Virus record (IMG/VR): IMGVR_UViG_3300021960_000023 | Location: 1 to 64,000 of that record | Direction: 5' to 3' (one strand) | Length of the DNA stretch: 64,000 nt | DNA from: a virus | In this document: positions 10,459-17,108 of the stretch, one piece after another | Layout of the letters: each line of letters begins with the position of its first letter | How positions within the stretch are numbered: position 1 is the first letter of the stretch | Notes under the pieces: model-generated | Databases searched by the model: none | What the model was told of the DNA's origin: nothing | What the model saw: the letters and a program-made list of their open reading frames with translations, nothing else | Program-made: the position numbers and the translations under genes

Positions 10459-11421
10459 ATGGCAGCACCAAACAGTAAAATAACATTAATTGATCATTGT
10501 TTAAGATCACTGGGTGCACCTGTAATCGAAATCAATGTAGATGACGATCAGGTTGATGATAGAGTAGACGAAGCTCTTCAGTTTTATCAAGCATATCATT
10601 CAGACGCAGTTGAAAAAGTTTACTTAAAACATGAAGTTAGTAATTCACAATTAACATTAAGCGCATCAGTTGCTAGTAATTTCACAATAGGTGAGATAAT
10701 TACTGGATCAACATCCGGTGCAAAAGCTTTAGTCCATTCTGTATCAGGTAATAAAATTACATATAATGTATTAGTAGATTGGAGTAAGACATTTCAAAAT
10801 GAATCAATTACAGGCGCGGACTCGAGTGCGAGCGCGACGGTTACTTCTGTTACTAAAGGCGATATGGAAAATGGATATATTACAATACCAGAATTAGTTA
10901 CGGATGTGTTAGAGGTATTTCCTATTAAAGAAGCGGTTTCATCTACTAATATGTTTGACATTAAATACCAAATGCATTTAAATGATATCTATTCATTAGG
11001 ATTTTTAGGTTCTTTAACCGAATATGTTATGACACAACAGTGGTTATCTTTATTAGATATGGTAATAGATGATGGTAAGAAACATTTAAGCTTTGATAAA
11101 CACAAAGATCAATTAAGAATCGATATGGATTGGGCAAAAGAAGTTATACCAGGTGAATATATTATCGTACATTGTAATAGAGTAATCGACCCAAATACTT
11201 ACACAGAAGTTTATAATGATTACTTTCTAAAGAAATACGCAACGGCTCTTATTAAAAGACAATGGGGAACAAACCTATTAAAATTTGAAGGAATGGTTAT
11301 GCCAGGTGGCGTAACGTTTAACGGTCGACAATTGTTTGATGATGCAAACGAAGAAATAACAAAATTAGAGGAAGAGTGTAGATTAAATTGGGAAGAACCA
11401 GTAGATTTCTATACAGGATAA
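10459..11421 (+). CDS. 13: Neck protein gp13
   Basis: The 320-aa product starts MAAPNSKITLIDHCLRSLG followed by PVIEINVDDDQVDDRVDEAL, the conserved gp13 opening in T4-like marine phages. gp13 and gp14 close the filled head and join it to the tail. The protein lies directly before gp14 and gp15, the T4 order. Residues about 60-135 (LTLSASVASNFTIGEIITG) look like an inserted beta-rich domain not present in the minimal T4 protein. A short GC-rich patch lies at 10812-10841. Confidence 0.88.
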   Translation: MAAPNSKITLIDHCLRSLGAPVIEINVDDDQVDDRVDEALQFYQAYHSDAVEKVYLKHEVSNSQLTLSASVASNFTIGEIITGSTSGAKALVHSVSGNKITYNVLVDWSKTFQNESITGADSSASATVTSVTKGDMENGYITIPELVTDVLEVFPIKEAVSSTNMFDIKYQMHLNDIYSLGFLGSLTEYVMTQQWLSLLDMVIDDGKKHLSFDKHKDQLRIDMDWAKEVIPGEYIIVHCNRVIDPNTYTEVYNDYFLKKYATALIKRQWGTNLLKFEGMVMPGGVTFNGRQLFDDANEEITKLEEECRLNWEEPVDFYTG

Positions 11422-11424
11422 ACC

Positions 11425-12369
11425 ATGCCAAGATCAGTTTTCTTTTCACAGGCGGTTAAATCAGAACAAAATCTTTACGAAGATTTAGTTATTGAAAGCC
11501 TAAAAATATTCGGACAGGATGTATATTATATTCCTCGAACATTAGTGAATAGGGATAACGTATTAAATGAAGATCCAGCATCTAAATTTGACGATGCATA
11601 TTTAATAGAAGCTTATTTAGAAAACGTAGATGGATTTGAAGGACAAGGGGATTTATATTCTAAATTCGGTTTAGAAATACGAGACGAAGCAACATTTGTA
11701 CTTTCTAGAAGACAGTGGGAAAAGATTGTTGGTATATTTTCAAGTGATTTAGTTAATCCGAGACCGCAAGAAGGTGATGTTATATTCCTTCCAATGACCA
11801 ATTCATTCTTTGAAATATCTTATGTTGAAGATGATTCACCATTCTATCAGTTATCTAACTTACCAGTATATAGACTTAACTGTTCGCTATTTGAATATTC
11901 AGACGAAGATTTCGATACAGGTGTAGAAGACATAGATCTAAAAACTGGGGCATCGGCTTACCAAACAGTTATGGATTTAGCTATTACCGATGGCAATCAT
12001 TTCCAAATAGGAGAAATGGTTAAACAAACAATTGGTATTACTGCAGCAGGATTAGATATAATTATTAAGGGTGAAGTACAGAATAGAACTAAATCTTCAG
12101 ATACTATTTCACAGGTTGGGGTTTCAAACATAGAAGTTCTTAATAGCGATGGAGTTGCTAAAGAGTTTATAGTTTCTACTAATAACCCAATGGTTGGAGA
12201 AACATCAGACTTTACAGCTTATGTAACTAAGGTATACGGAATAAACGACGTAACTGAAACATTTGATACAGATGGCGGAGCACAAAATGTTGACTTCGAA
12301 AATTTTGCTGATGACTTTATTGACTTCAGTGAAACAAATCCATTTGGCGATCCATCGGAGCTTTACTAA
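11425..12369 (+). CDS. 14: Neck protein gp14
   Basis: The 314-aa product contains the gp14 core (EDLVIESLKIFGQDVYYIPR, then VNRDNVLNEDPASKFDDAY and SRRQWEKIVG) and ends PFGDPSELY. It joins head and tail together with gp13. It follows gp13 with a 3-base gap, and its stop overlaps the gp15 ATG (TAATG). The C-terminal part contains a beta-rich repeat region longer than the T4 protein. Confidence 0.88.
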   Translation: MPRSVFFSQAVKSEQNLYEDLVIESLKIFGQDVYYIPRTLVNRDNVLNEDPASKFDDAYLIEAYLENVDGFEGQGDLYSKFGLEIRDEATFVLSRRQWEKIVGIFSSDLVNPRPQEGDVIFLPMTNSFFEISYVEDDSPFYQLSNLPVYRLNCSLFEYSDEDFDTGVEDIDLKTGASAYQTVMDLAITDGNHFQIGEMVKQTIGITAAGLDIIIKGEVQNRTKSSDTISQVGVSNIEVLNSDGVAKEFIVSTNNPMVGETSDFTAYVTKVYGINDVTETFDTDGGAQNVDFENFADDFIDFSETNPFGDPSELY

Positions 12370-13640
12370 TGTTTGGTACACATTTCTATCACGCAACAAT
12401 GCGAAAATCAGTAGCAGTGTTTGGTACATTGTTTAATAACATAAATGTTGTAAGAAAAAAAAGTGATGGATCAATTGTAAACCAGGTTAGAGTTCCTTTA
12501 GCATATGGACCTAAACAAAAATTCCTTGCAAGGCTAGATCAAGAAACAGGATTTGATGCTCCAATGGGGATTAAATTACCTCGTATGGCTTTCGAAATAA
12601 CTTCTTTAGAATTAGATGTAGTACAGAAAGGACAAAAAAGAAACAGAATTATAGAAAACCACGCATCAGACGTAACTAAAAAGAAAACACTACAAAATTA
12701 TACAGCGTATAATATTGGTATGCAGCTAAACATTTTAGCTAAAAACCAAGACGATGGATTACAAATCGTAGAACAAATACTACCATTTTTTCAACCGGAG
12801 TATACTCTTTCTATTAAACCGGTATCTGGATTTGATTTTAAACAGGATGTACCAGTTATATTAACTGGAGTAAATATTGAAGACCAATATGAAGGTAGTT
12901 TTGAAGAAAGAAGAATATTAACATATACCTTAGACTTTGTTATGAAAATGAAATTCTATGGACCAACAGTTAATACTGGCGTTATTAGAGAAATCAATCT
13001 TGACTTTGAAAACCAAACAACTGGGGAATTCTTCGAAGGATTAAACTATACAGTTCGACCTTCAGATACAGTAGATACACAGGTAGTTACAATAGCGTAC
13101 GATGAGAACCAATTCGTAGTTGGTGGTGGAGTAGCTAATTATACCGTTAACGTCGAGGCAGTGGGGGTTCAAAGAACATCTGCGTCAACAAGTTCTAACT
13201 CTACAGAAATACAGCTAGATAATACATCACAATTACAAATTGGTCATACTATAACTGGAACCGGCATATCAGGAACAGCGCAGGTATCTAGTATAGATTC
13301 ACCAACAAAAATAACTATAAGTTCCTCACAATCAATTGCAAACAATGTAACATTGACGTTTACCGCTAATAAATATAACTTATTCGGTCAAGTTCAACCA
13401 ACACTAACTCTATATAGAGGTCAAACATACATCTTTACTCACCCAAGTGCTCATCCATTTAGAATATCAACTGTCTCGGATGGAACACATGTGGCGGGAG
13501 GAACTGCTTATACAACTGGAGTGACAACATCTTCTACTACTACAACATTTGTGGTAGGAGAAAATACACCTGAGCAAATGTTCTACTACTGTGGAAACCA
13601 TGCAAAAATGGGTGGACAATTTACAATATTAACATCTTAA
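12369..13640 (+). CDS. 15: Tail terminator / sheath stabiliser gp15 with C-terminal cupredoxin-like domain
   Basis: Residues 1-230 match gp15 (MFGTHFYHATMRKSVAVFGT, PLAYGPKQKFLARLDQ), the hexameric protein that caps the tail tube and sheath below the neck. The protein is 423 aa, far longer than T4 gp15 (about 270 aa). The extension holds a beta-rich linker (LQIGHTITGTGISGTAQVSS) and, from about residue 335, a cupredoxin-like domain. In that domain H362 and the motif C408-G-N-H411-A-K-M414 supply all four usual type-1 copper ligands. Copper binding is inferred. It lies between gp14 and gp16 as in T4. Confidence 0.87.
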   Translation: MFGTHFYHATMRKSVAVFGTLFNNINVVRKKSDGSIVNQVRVPLAYGPKQKFLARLDQETGFDAPMGIKLPRMAFEITSLELDVVQKGQKRNRIIENHASDVTKKKTLQNYTAYNIGMQLNILAKNQDDGLQIVEQILPFFQPEYTLSIKPVSGFDFKQDVPVILTGVNIEDQYEGSFEERRILTYTLDFVMKMKFYGPTVNTGVIREINLDFENQTTGEFFEGLNYTVRPSDTVDTQVVTIAYDENQFVVGGGVANYTVNVEAVGVQRTSASTSSNSTEIQLDNTSQLQIGHTITGTGISGTAQVSSIDSPTKITISSSQSIANNVTLTFTANKYNLFGQVQPTLTLYRGQTYIFTHPSAHPFRISTVSDGTHVAGGTAYTTGVTTSSTTTTFVVGENTPEQMFYYCGNHAKMGGQFTILTS

Positions 13641-13650
13641 TGGATATATT

Positions 13651-14061
13651 ATGGACAAAAAAGACAAGCTACAAAAGTCATTAGAGAAAAATCTTCCTAG
13701 TAAAAGACCTCCGGCAGCTAAACTGCAGGACAAAATAGATATTAAGGATGATTATGAATTCTCTAGAAAAACCTATAAAGATTTAATCCAAACTGGAATG
13801 TATAGTTTGGATACGCTCGCCGAGCTCGCCCGCGAGAGCGAGCACCCACGTGCGTTCGAAGTATTAAGTAGAGCCATAAAAGACGTAGCAGATACTACAG
13901 AAAAGCTTATGGACTTACAAAAAAATAAAAAAGCTTTGAATAAAGAAGAAGAAGAAAAAGAAAAAGAGAGATTAGTTACTAATAATAATCTATTCGTAGG
14001 AAGCACAGCAGATTTACAAAAGATGATATTGGATAAAGATTTTATTGATGCAGAGGATTAA
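13651..14061 (+). CDS. 16: Small terminase subunit gp16
   Basis: The 136-aa product has the gp16 core (DDYEFSRKTYKDLIQTGMYS, then SEHPRAFEVLSRAIKDV) and the C-terminal signature VTNNNLFVGSTADLQKMI. gp16 recognises DNA and stimulates the gp17 packaging motor. Its end overlaps the gp17 start. Codons for residues about 54-70 (13812-13860) are strikingly GC-rich compared with the rest of the gene. Confidence 0.85.
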   Translation: MDKKDKLQKSLEKNLPSKRPPAAKLQDKIDIKDDYEFSRKTYKDLIQTGMYSLDTLAELARESEHPRAFEVLSRAIKDVADTTEKLMDLQKNKKALNKEEEEKEKERLVTNNNLFVGSTADLQKMILDKDFIDAED

Positions 14062-15655
14062 AAATAACGAATTCGGGTATCTAGGTAATCCTAATGTAAA
14101 ACGGGATGGTGTAGTCACAGAATTTAGTAAAGAAGAAATAAGGGAATACATGAAGTGTATGAAAGACCCTGCTTATTTTGCTAAAAAATATGTTAAGATT
14201 ATATCACTCGATGAAGGATTAGTACCTTTTGATTTGTATCCTTATCAAAAAAAGATGTTTAAACACTTCAATCAGAATAGATTTAGTATAGTGTTAGCAT
14301 GTAGACAAAGTGGTAAAAGTATATCTAGTGTGGTTTATATCTTATGGTATGCAGTATTTCACCCAGAGAAAACCATAGCTATACTTGCAAACAAAGGTGC
14401 GGTAGCCAGAGAAATGTTATCTCGTATTACATTGGCTTTGGAAAACTTACCTTTCTTTTTACAGCCAGGAACAAAGGCTTTAAACAAAGGGTCTATAGAG
14501 TTCAGTAATAATTCTAAGATACTAGCAGCGGCAACGTCTGGAAGTTCTATAAGGGGTTTATCCATTAACTTATTGTTCTTAGATGAGTTCGCATTTATTG
14601 ATGATGATGCTAAATTTTATACATCAACCTATCCGGTGGTATCGGCAGGTAAAGATACACAGATTATAATTTGTTCTACAGCAAATGGAATAGGTAATGT
14701 ATATCATAAGCTTTGGGAAGGTGCTTCTCAAGGAACAAATGAATATAAGCCTTTCAGAATAGATTGGTGGGATGTACCAGGAAGAAATAAAACTTGGCAA
14801 AAACAAACTATAGCGAATACATCGGAATTACAGTTTGAACAAGAGTTTGGTAATACATTCCATGGAAGAGGTAATACACTTATTGATGCTAATTACTTAT
14901 TAGCTCAACAAAGCGTTGAACCTGAATTTATAAAAGAGAATGCCTGGATATATGAAACTGCATTAGAAGGTCATGAATATATAATGACTGTGGATGTTGC
15001 AAAGGGAAGAGGACAAGATTACAGTACGTTTACTGTTATTGATGTTTCAACCGAACCGTTTAGACAAGTAGCTACGTTTAGAGATAACAATATATCTCCA
15101 ATGTTATTACCTGATATAGTTTATAAGTATGCTAAGTCGTATAATGATGCTTACGTGATTGTAGAAAGTAATGACCAGGGTTCAGTAGTTTGTAATGGAT
15201 TATATTATGATTTAGAATATGAAAACATGTTTGTAGAATCGTCAGTAAAGGCAAATGCAATTGGTGCTACGATGACACGAAGGGTAAAAAGAATAGGTTG
15301 TTCTACTATAAAAGATTTAATAGAGCAAGGTAAACTACATATCCAGGATGCTAATACAATTATAGAGATGAGTACATTTGTTTCTGTTGGATCTTCTTTT
15401 ATGGCTAAAGCACCTAACCATGATGATTTAATGATGAACCTAGTAATGTTTGCTTGGTTTACTTCAACAGATATATTTAGATCATTAACAGATATTGATA
15501 TGAAAGATATGTTATACAGAGAAAGATTAGCTGCTATACAAGATGACATGCTTCCGGTTGGTTTCTTAGGTGAGAAATCTGAAGAGCATAAATATACTAA
15601 AGACTCAGACGGTAATCTCTGGTTCGAACAAGACACTAAATTTACGAATTGGTAA
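14048..15655 (+). CDS. 17: Terminase large subunit gp17
   Basis: The ATPase-nuclease packaging motor. Counting from an in-frame TTG at 14045, the visible motifs are Walker A CRQSGKS at about residues 86-92, Walker B LLFLDE at about 176-181 and coupling motif CSTANG near 210. The RNase-H-like nuclease residues are D317 (TVDVAKGRGQD), E374 (VESNDQG) and D461 (NHDDLM). I chose ATG 14048 (MQRIKNNEF) over the TTG three bases earlier. Length about 535 aa is close to T4 gp17 minus its tail. Its gene overlaps gp16, and the next gene starts 1 base after its stop. Confidence 0.95.
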   Translation: MQRIKNNEFGYLGNPNVKRDGVVTEFSKEEIREYMKCMKDPAYFAKKYVKIISLDEGLVPFDLYPYQKKMFKHFNQNRFSIVLACRQSGKSISSVVYILWYAVFHPEKTIAILANKGAVAREMLSRITLALENLPFFLQPGTKALNKGSIEFSNNSKILAAATSGSSIRGLSINLLFLDEFAFIDDDAKFYTSTYPVVSAGKDTQIIICSTANGIGNVYHKLWEGASQGTNEYKPFRIDWWDVPGRNKTWQKQTIANTSELQFEQEFGNTFHGRGNTLIDANYLLAQQSVEPEFIKENAWIYETALEGHEYIMTVDVAKGRGQDYSTFTVIDVSTEPFRQVATFRDNNISPMLLPDIVYKYAKSYNDAYVIVESNDQGSVVCNGLYYDLEYENMFVESSVKANAIGATMTRRVKRIGCSTIKDLIEQGKLHIQDANTIIEMSTFVSVGSSFMAKAPNHDDLMMNLVMFAWFTSTDIFRSLTDIDMKDMLYRERLAAIQDDMLPVGFLGEKSEEHKYTKDSDGNLWFEQDTKFTNW

Positions 15656-15656
15656 T

Positions 15657-17108
15657 ATGAAATTTAAAGAATATATAGATCCTCAACCAATAGAGGAAGC
15701 AATAGATACCTCAGACCAGGCTTTAAAAAAGACCTCTGGTTTACATCTTGTTGTGCTCGGTCTAGGAGACGAAGAAGGTACATTTGCAGATGTAATACAA
15801 GAAGTAGCTAAAAACAAAAAAATAAAGTATACTCTAATTAACGTAGAAGAAGCTTATATAGCAGATGCGGATTTAGATGTTGGAAATCTTACGTTCCATA
15901 ATTACGACGGCGAGGATAAAAAGATTACCCTTGAGAAAGAAAAGTGTATCGTATTTGTAAGAGCTGGGGCAATACAAACATTAGTTTCCCAGGCTTTAGT
16001 ATCTACGCTAGGTGCTTATGGATTCTTTCTTATCAATGATTTAGAATCTATGATTTTATGTGATAACAAGCTATCAAGCACAATTCTTTTAGATAGGTAT
16101 GATATTAGTACCCCAAAAACTGCTATGATTAGTAACGTTAAATCTATAGAAATAGCACACGAAAAGATCGGCGGTAAATTCCCAGTTATAATTAAAACCC
16201 TTACAGGTACACAAGGTGTGGGGGTTTCTAAAGTAAACGATATGGCTTCGTTAATATCTGTAGCACAATCTCTATGGAAATATGATGCACAGATATTAAT
16301 ACAACAATTCCTAGATATAAAATCAGATATACGTACATTAGTTGTGAATGGTCATATCATAGGCGCAGCACAAAGAATAAAGCAAGATGATAAAGAATTT
16401 AGAAACAATGTACATTTAGGTGCTAAAACTGTACCATATAATCTATCGGAAGAAGAAAAAGAATTGATTAAGCGTGCAGCACGTGCGTCTGGTACTATGT
16501 ATTGTGGAGTAGATCACTGCAAAGTTGGAGATCAGTATTACATACTAGAAATAAATGGATCACCTGGAATACGTTCTTCGTTCATGGCTTATGATCCAGC
16601 AGATGGAAAAAAGATAGGCAAAATGTCCGACAAAGAAGTATTCGAAGTTATATTAGATTACTATTCTTCTGAACTACACCGAAGACCTTTATTTAGAACC
16701 GAAGCTGGTTATATAGAAAGAGTTATAGTAGAAGGATTAAATGCACCAGTAAGAGCTAAGTTTGATACAGGTAATGGCACAAATGCCACAATGTTACATG
16801 TAGATAAATTAGAAATAGATGGTGATACAGCTCATTGGGTTAAAAACGGACAGAAATTTAAAAATGAAATAATAGATGTATCACTAGCAAAGCATTTACA
16901 AACCACAGATAAAAGGCCTGTGGTAGAACTAACAATATCCTTTAATAATAAACAATACACGGTTCCTTTCGGATTAACTACAAGAGATTCTGCTTCAGAA
17001 ATGCTTGTAAATAGGAAGCTATTAAGTATATTTAAGGTATCAGTTAATCCAAATAGGAAGTTTATTTTATCGGATTGGGTTCCAAAGAACGATCGCAGCG
17101 ATGTGTAG
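15657..17108 (+). CDS. RimK-like ATP-grasp ligase fused to RimB-like retropepsin domain
   Basis: The 483-aa product has an ATP-grasp glutamate-ligase core: IIKTLTGTQGVGVS near residue 175, RTLVVNGHIIGAAQR, EFRNNVHLGAK, and ILEINGSPGIRSS near 296. The C-terminal domain (about 345-480) starts YIERVIVEGLNAPVRAKFDT with an aspartyl-protease DTG near residue 368, and continues with a LVNRKLLS segment, as in RimB-type retropepsins. In bacteria RimK adds glutamates to ribosomal protein bS6 and RimB trims them. The first residues MKFKEYIDPQPIEEA resemble a capsid-targeting leader with an I-x-E cleavage site. The target protein here is unknown. ATG 15657 follows the gp17 stop; an upstream frame extension overlaps gp17 and was rejected. 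Confidence 0.78.
   Translation: MKFKEYIDPQPIEEAIDTSDQALKKTSGLHLVVLGLGDEEGTFADVIQEVAKNKKIKYTLINVEEAYIADADLDVGNLTFHNYDGEDKKITLEKEKCIVFVRAGAIQTLVSQALVSTLGAYGFFLINDLESMILCDNKLSSTILLDRYDISTPKTAMISNVKSIEIAHEKIGGKFPVIIKTLTGTQGVGVSKVNDMASLISVAQSLWKYDAQILIQQFLDIKSDIRTLVVNGHIIGAAQRIKQDDKEFRNNVHLGAKTVPYNLSEEEKELIKRAARASGTMYCGVDHCKVGDQYYILEINGSPGIRSSFMAYDPADGKKIGKMSDKEVFEVILDYYSSELHRRPLFRTEAGYIERVIVEGLNAPVRAKFDTGNGTNATMLHVDKLEIDGDTAHWVKNGQKFKNEIIDVSLAKHLQTTDKRPVVELTISFNNKQYTVPFGLTTRDSASEMLVNRKLLSIFKVSVNPNRKFILSDWVPKNDRSDV

Follow-up and report, generated by a model that had tools for sequence, protein, structure and literature searches.

The window, a stretch of 64,000 nucleotides (positions 1 to 64,000 of the IMG/VR virus record IMGVR_UViG_3300021960_000023), comes from a marine T4-like phage. 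It carries a tail terminator gene whose product is prolonged by a C-terminal arm. The gene, the first parts of its product and the neighbouring genes are as follows.

10459..12369, + strand: gp13 and gp14 (head-tail adaptor and head closure), neck context
12369..13640, + strand: gp15 gene, tail terminator / tail sheath stabiliser with a C-terminal arm (423 aa, ATG to TAA)
12369..13079, + strand: T4 gp15 tail terminator domain, residues 1-237 (PF16724, E 7.1e-68)
12960..13124, + strand: end of the terminator domain and flexible linker, residues 198-252 (pLDDT below 50)
13651..15655, + strand: gp16 and gp17 (small and large terminase subunits), context

The ORF at 12369-13640 is assigned from its sequence as gp15, an ordinary T4-type tail terminator, and several computations support this identity. 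Residues 5-237 match PF16724 with 228.8 bits against a curated cut-off of 25, the alignment covering profile positions 1-231 of 245, and the same residues match the solved T4 gp15 chains (PDB 4huh/3j2m) with E ~2e-21. The PHROG tail sheath stabiliser family is matched with E 4.6e-77. The gene order gp13-gp14-gp15-gp16-gp17 is present as in T4, the tail sheath and portal genes are also neighbours of gp15 in the genome, and the portal is 56-63% identical to the portals of HTVC008M, S-CREM1 and phage C48C1. The N-terminal domain and the gene order are therefore common to the window protein and T4 gp15 (PF16724; PDB 3j2m, 4huh, 9mkb), whereas the T4 gp15 chains in the PDB, 261-272 residues long, are without the C-terminal arm of ~170 residues. 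Between gp17 and the tail sheath gene, at window positions 15570-17108, lies a gene for a fusion of two domains, a RimK ATP-grasp (PF08443, E 4e-37) and a RimB-like ATP-dependent zinc protease (PF05618, E 8e-8).

The arm is predicted to fold as a cupredoxin domain in two separated parts.

13125..13163, + strand: cupredoxin strand 1, residues ~253-265 (NYTVNVEAV); structural matches begin at 252/253
13164..13367, + strand: nested mobile beta module in the beta1-beta2 loop, residues ~266-333
13368..13637, + strand: remainder of the cupredoxin domain, residues 334-423, delimited by conservation, model and structural matches

A model of residues 334-423 built from 49 sequences has a mean pLDDT of 88.7. 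In searches with Foldseek and VIA-align, AcoP, rusticyanin, amicyanin, plastocyanin and the cupredoxin domains of nitrite reductases stand at or near the top for this model; the first Foldseek match is 8co1_A2 ('Type II Secretion System'), with E 2.9e-4. A rusticyanin-type chain superimposes with Z 7.8 (rmsd 2.3, 83 residues), and Ig-type domains, at Z ~6, come near the cupredoxin scores. The full-length gp15 model has a mean pLDDT of only 68.7, yet reaches ~90 over most of residues 255-423, and its nitrite-reductase cupredoxin match has Z 9.7 (rmsd 2.1, 89 residues). Rusticyanin, AcoP and the N-terminal cupredoxin domain of Hyphomicrobium nitrite reductase are thus the best structural matches of both the partial and the full-length model. 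They differ from the gp15 domain in being periplasmic redox proteins with longer ligand loops, at ~19-27% identity in the structural alignments.

Since the cupredoxin matches of the full-length model start at residue 252/253, with Z up to 9.7, we place strand 1 at about residues 253-265 and read residues 266-333 as an inserted beta module. The domain is thereby predicted, on the models, to be discontinuous (253-265 plus 334-423). In copies without the insert, a (Y/F)(T/A)VTV strand immediately precedes NKY, and the pattern [VIL]x[VIL] occurs at this strand in 138 of 164 such copies against a background of 47%. The gp15 proteins of L023-L026 have no insert in their cupredoxin, and in those of L006-L017 a further insert of this kind, the second, lies more deeply inside the domain. 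The preliminary description had set the domain limits at 335-423; its C-terminal location holds, but the limits have to be widened to 253-423, and the fragment 335-423 would be a cupredoxin without its first strand. The beta module nested in gp15 recurs elsewhere in this genome, in a baseplate-type protein (G000:C1:108562-108792).

Four residues of the second part are the predicted copper ligands.

13452..13454, + strand: H362 (CAT), first predicted copper ligand
13590..13592, + strand: C408 (TGT), predicted copper thiolate ligand and the only Cys of gp15
13599..13601, + strand: H411 (CAT), predicted copper ligand
13608..13610, + strand: M414 (ATG), predicted axial ligand; Gln or His in a few relatives

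Their sequence context is YYCGNHAKMGGQ. The extra domain on a 423-aa gp15 and the positions of these four residues had already been given in the preliminary description, and both are confirmed here together with the extent of PF16724 over residues 5-237. The same description had named a lack of ligand conservation among relatives as an outcome that would speak against a copper site. Among 49 diverse copies of the domain, all four residues fall in nearly invariant columns. As some contigs had been fetched with peptides from the C-terminal motif, the count was repeated on 117 distinct copies retrieved with peptides that avoid this C-H-M motif. Of these, 117/117 have Cys and the second His, and 116/117 each have the first His and Met; the ligands are thus conserved beyond what chance would give, in copies that are related and not independent, from collection scans that were seeded by peptides.

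A wider set of 217 distinct copies from phages and bacteria reveals how the ligands are lost. The quartet is HCHM in 207 copies, HCHQ in two, HCHH in one and DCHL in one, while the remaining six (NSAM, NSLM, KGTL, DATM, RDVY and RDTA) are without His, Cys and His and stem, by inspection, from about five distinct lineages of proteins. The copies without Cys and those without the second His are exactly the same six of the 217 (Fisher 7e-12, a value overstated by the relatedness of the sequences). Of 330 quartets drawn from other conserved columns, none reached the share of joint loss seen for the ligands. In an earlier pass over phage-side copies, made before the later bacterial genome copies were added, every copy with two or more ligands missing still had the fold residues F22, L79 and G90. 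In these sequences the equatorial trio appears nearly all-or-none, and the axial Met can switch alone to Gln, which is also the axial ligand in stellacyanin and auracyanin (PMC517927). The all-or-none loss points to one metal site, and the joint loss of the trio with an independent change of Met to Gln is the pattern that a type-1 copper site predicts. Cyanophage PSS2 encodes a stand-alone copy of the domain of 112 aa (CSPG_00077; L268:2992-3330), in which three ligands are lost (D, A, T) and Met is kept.

In comparison to the curated cupredoxin families, the domain stands apart. Neither Pfam nor NCBIfam holds a model specific to these ~90 residues. The window gp15 gives no match to PF00127 (Copper-bind), and among the 49 copies five match it weakly, the best with E 0.011. 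The PROSITE type-1 copper signature PS00196 is matched by none of the 49 copies, the window gp15 included, and is matched by amicyanin and by secreted proteins of Prochlorococcus. PF25489, an At5g54830-like domain, is hit below threshold (20 bits against a cut-off of 27). A direct profile search of the PDB (A1) returned chance-level matches, with pseudoazurin (E 0.78) as the sole cupredoxin.

The Prochlorococcus proteins provide the connection. These small secreted blue-copper-like proteins (L361-L365), with the loop CSPHASFGM, were found with the phage profile and match it with E 4e-9 to 4e-8; the two that were tested exceed the PF00127 cut-off, at 27.7 and 32.4 bits against 21.2. In hhalign, the domain family and the Prochlorococcus secreted proteins align with E 1.5e-10 and with the four ligand columns in register. 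A profile comparison with bacterial PF00127 proteins and amicyanin aligns the same columns with E 3e-4 and a moderate probability of 39. Because the Prochlorococcus proteins bridge to PF00127 with the ligand columns aligned, we take the domain to be a cupredoxin by common ancestry, in a separate family that lies beyond the curated limit of PF00127. The features by which the superfamily is recognized were found in prediction and alignment, namely the fold, the His-Cys-His-Met/Gln order with a short loop, and the conservation of the ligands as a unit. The earlier assignment to a cupredoxin domain with type-1 ligands is therefore upheld in its ligand set, its predicted fold and its path to PF00127, but not as membership of PF00127 or PS00196, both of which miss the window protein.

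Residues 334-423 match at least 344 confirmed stretches of viral contigs, and a consensus search located the domain in at least 365 phage records and at least 939 places. Among the matches listed, the organism groups are phages of marine picoplankton (Synechococcus, Prochlorococcus, 'Cyanophage', Pelagibacter, Methylophilales). The PHROG families that hold the domain are the gp9 baseplate-fibre connector, baseplate wedges and tail fibres, and 13 named phages and the source genome contain one to six domain matches each. A second copy in the same phage (G000:C1:121322-121594) belongs to a 1207-aa fibre-like protein (HPLRF, CSAHGYMGG). The gp9 connectors of S-RIM2, P-SSM4, S-CAM22 and ACG-2014d (L257, L258, L260, L261) end in this same domain, with its four ligands present. 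The gp15 domain is accordingly one copy of a mobile virion module and not a speciality of gp15, and this mobility is supported by the searches. The preliminary description was correct that the domain is on gp15, but had called it unexpected at the neck, a judgement to be recast because many marine phages carry the module on their gp9 connectors, on baseplate wedges and on fibres.

The module is also present in marine bacteria. In the SAR86 order that includes genome G006, 69 of 151 genomes contain it, commonly in proteins that begin with a lipobox-like stretch (CGGGGG); within the genus Prochlorococcus it was found in 10 of the 101 genomes searched, mostly in small secreted proteins. Many genomes of the SAR86 order encode lipoprotein-like proteins of ~635-670 aa (L367-L372) that combine a cadherin-like repeat with a diverged HCHM cupredoxin close to their C-terminus.

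Among gp15 proteins themselves, the arm follows the phylogeny. In the gp15 tree, 17 sequences with the cupredoxin, 12 bare sequences and 7 with another C-terminal domain separate with the minimum possible number of changes; the support is only 77/84 for the cupredoxin group and 100/99 for the 11-row group of the window. Judged from this tree, the arm is a clade-level trait among gp15 relatives, and a single origin of it is possible. Bare gp15 proteins that are ~65-71% identical to the window gp15 stop directly after the terminator domain, which shows that the head-tail joint can do without the arm. A stabilizing role at this joint, which had been proposed earlier, is thus weakened, the more so as the arm sits on the low-confidence linker of residues 198-252. 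A different C-terminal domain of ~100 aa is present on the gp15 proteins of L065-L082, which makes the tail end of gp15 a recurrent site of fusion.

On this evidence we consider it probable that gp15 carries a mobile, discontinuous cupredoxin module, probably stabilized by copper, with a site of type-1 design and with a role most likely in adhesion and not in electron transfer. H362, C408, H411 and M414 would together form this one site, whose loop C-x2-H-x2-M is as short as that of amicyanin. Virions are assembled in the cytoplasm, where copper is scarce, and gp15 would be made there, in the reducing environment of the host, in a metal-free form. Since the cytoplasm offers little free copper, we infer that the metal would be acquired in the periplasm or, once the protein has been released, from seawater. 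When bound, it may fix the two ligand-bearing loops of this small surface domain in place. Each virion would, in analogy to the gp15 hexamer of T4, display six such arms on flexible linkers around the neck, where they might attach to the host surface, to particles or to the virion's own fibres. An adhesive role is suggested by the presence of the module on connectors, fibres and surface lipoproteins and by its persistence without the metal site. The module moves among neck, baseplate-connector, wedge and fibre proteins, and is also carried by marine bacterial surface lipoproteins.

Other explanations of the same data have to be weighed. The site may have the cupredoxin fold but bind another metal from the cell, either Zn(II) or Cu(I) in a purely structural role, and serve as a structural staple only. 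Assembly in the cytoplasm, where zinc is easier to obtain than copper, the conservation of the ligand set as a unit and the presence of the domain on proteins without a known redox partner are all compatible with this, but we regard it as unlikely because a fourth ligand that is Met, or Gln in two relatives, is the pattern of type-1 copper and not the usual zinc set, and because the closest matches are copper proteins. It is improbable that the domain is a cupredoxin relic serving as an adhesin, its four residues kept for packing or folding with no metal in nature. The six copies that hold the fold without His, Cys and His do show that the fold needs no metal; however, near-perfect conservation of a solitary Cys, two His and a Met across highly diverged proteins, and their loss as a unit, would be unexpected for packing residues.

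An active copper function, in which the domain senses redox conditions or transfers electrons at the cell surface or docks to copper-protein partners of the host, could draw on the complete type-1 ligand set and on the homologous domains of marine bacterial surface lipoproteins. The domain is nevertheless scattered over many structural proteins and persists in ligand-less copies, so that we hold this to be very improbable, and redox sensing, as raised in the preliminary description, finds no support. That an ordinary Ig-like phage domain has acquired H, C, H and M by chance is hardly credible. Ig-like domains are common on phage particles and score Z ~6 here, but the conservation of the ligands, their joint loss and the sequence path to PF00127, through proteins above its cut-off, led us to reject this candidate. 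A broader form of the copper-stabilized adhesion reading, in which the particles of abundant marine phages would be copper proteins, displaying at neck, baseplate connector and fibres a mobile type-1 module that picks up copper from seawater or the host periplasm and aids attachment to hosts or particles, appears rather improbable. It would, if true, extend the Trojan-horse idea from iron to copper and point to a possible pool of organic copper in seawater.

Cupredoxins are familiar from textbooks as proteins that carry electrons in respiration and photosynthesis, and phage petE genes and proposed iron-binding phage fibres are known as well. We found no description in the open-access literature of a virion cupredoxin with conserved type-1 ligands, and an earlier description elsewhere is possible. 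A complete ligand set kept as a unit on the particles of cyanophages, pelagiphages and their kin would make these particles metalloproteins of a kind undescribed in that literature. Annotators would also gain a name for a domain within several families labelled 'tail fibre', 'baseplate' or 'hypothetical', which is without a Pfam model of its own. The HxH motifs of the T4 gp37 tail fibre have been proposed to bind iron in the Trojan horse hypothesis (PMC11705849); they are likewise a metal site on a phage tail protein, as predicted for gp15, but hold octahedral iron by HxH pairs. A site of this type was ruled out for gp15, whose sequence contains no His-x-His. The plastocyanin encoded by cyanophage petE (PMC2984593) is, like the gp15 domain, a phage-encoded cupredoxin, but is a homologue of a host photosynthetic electron carrier and not a virion domain.

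Amicyanin, with ligands H53, C92, H95 and M98 and the spacing C-x2-H-x2-M (PMC517927), shares this spacing with the gp15 domain, and the plastocyanin-azurin family as a whole (PF00127) shares the Greek-key beta sandwich and the order His...Cys-x2-His-x2-Met, with ligand columns that align. The gp15 domain differs from amicyanin in a conserved TAYTTGVT stretch, in being part of a large virion protein and in the insert in the beta1-beta2 loop, and from the PF00127 family in scoring below the Pfam cut-off and failing PS00196. Its nearest counterpart on a virion is the same HCHM domain at the C-terminus of gp9 in marine cyanomyoviruses (phrog_677; S-RIM2, P-SSM4, S-CAM22), which occupies another position in the virion than gp15 and whose copies are ~40% identical to the family consensus.
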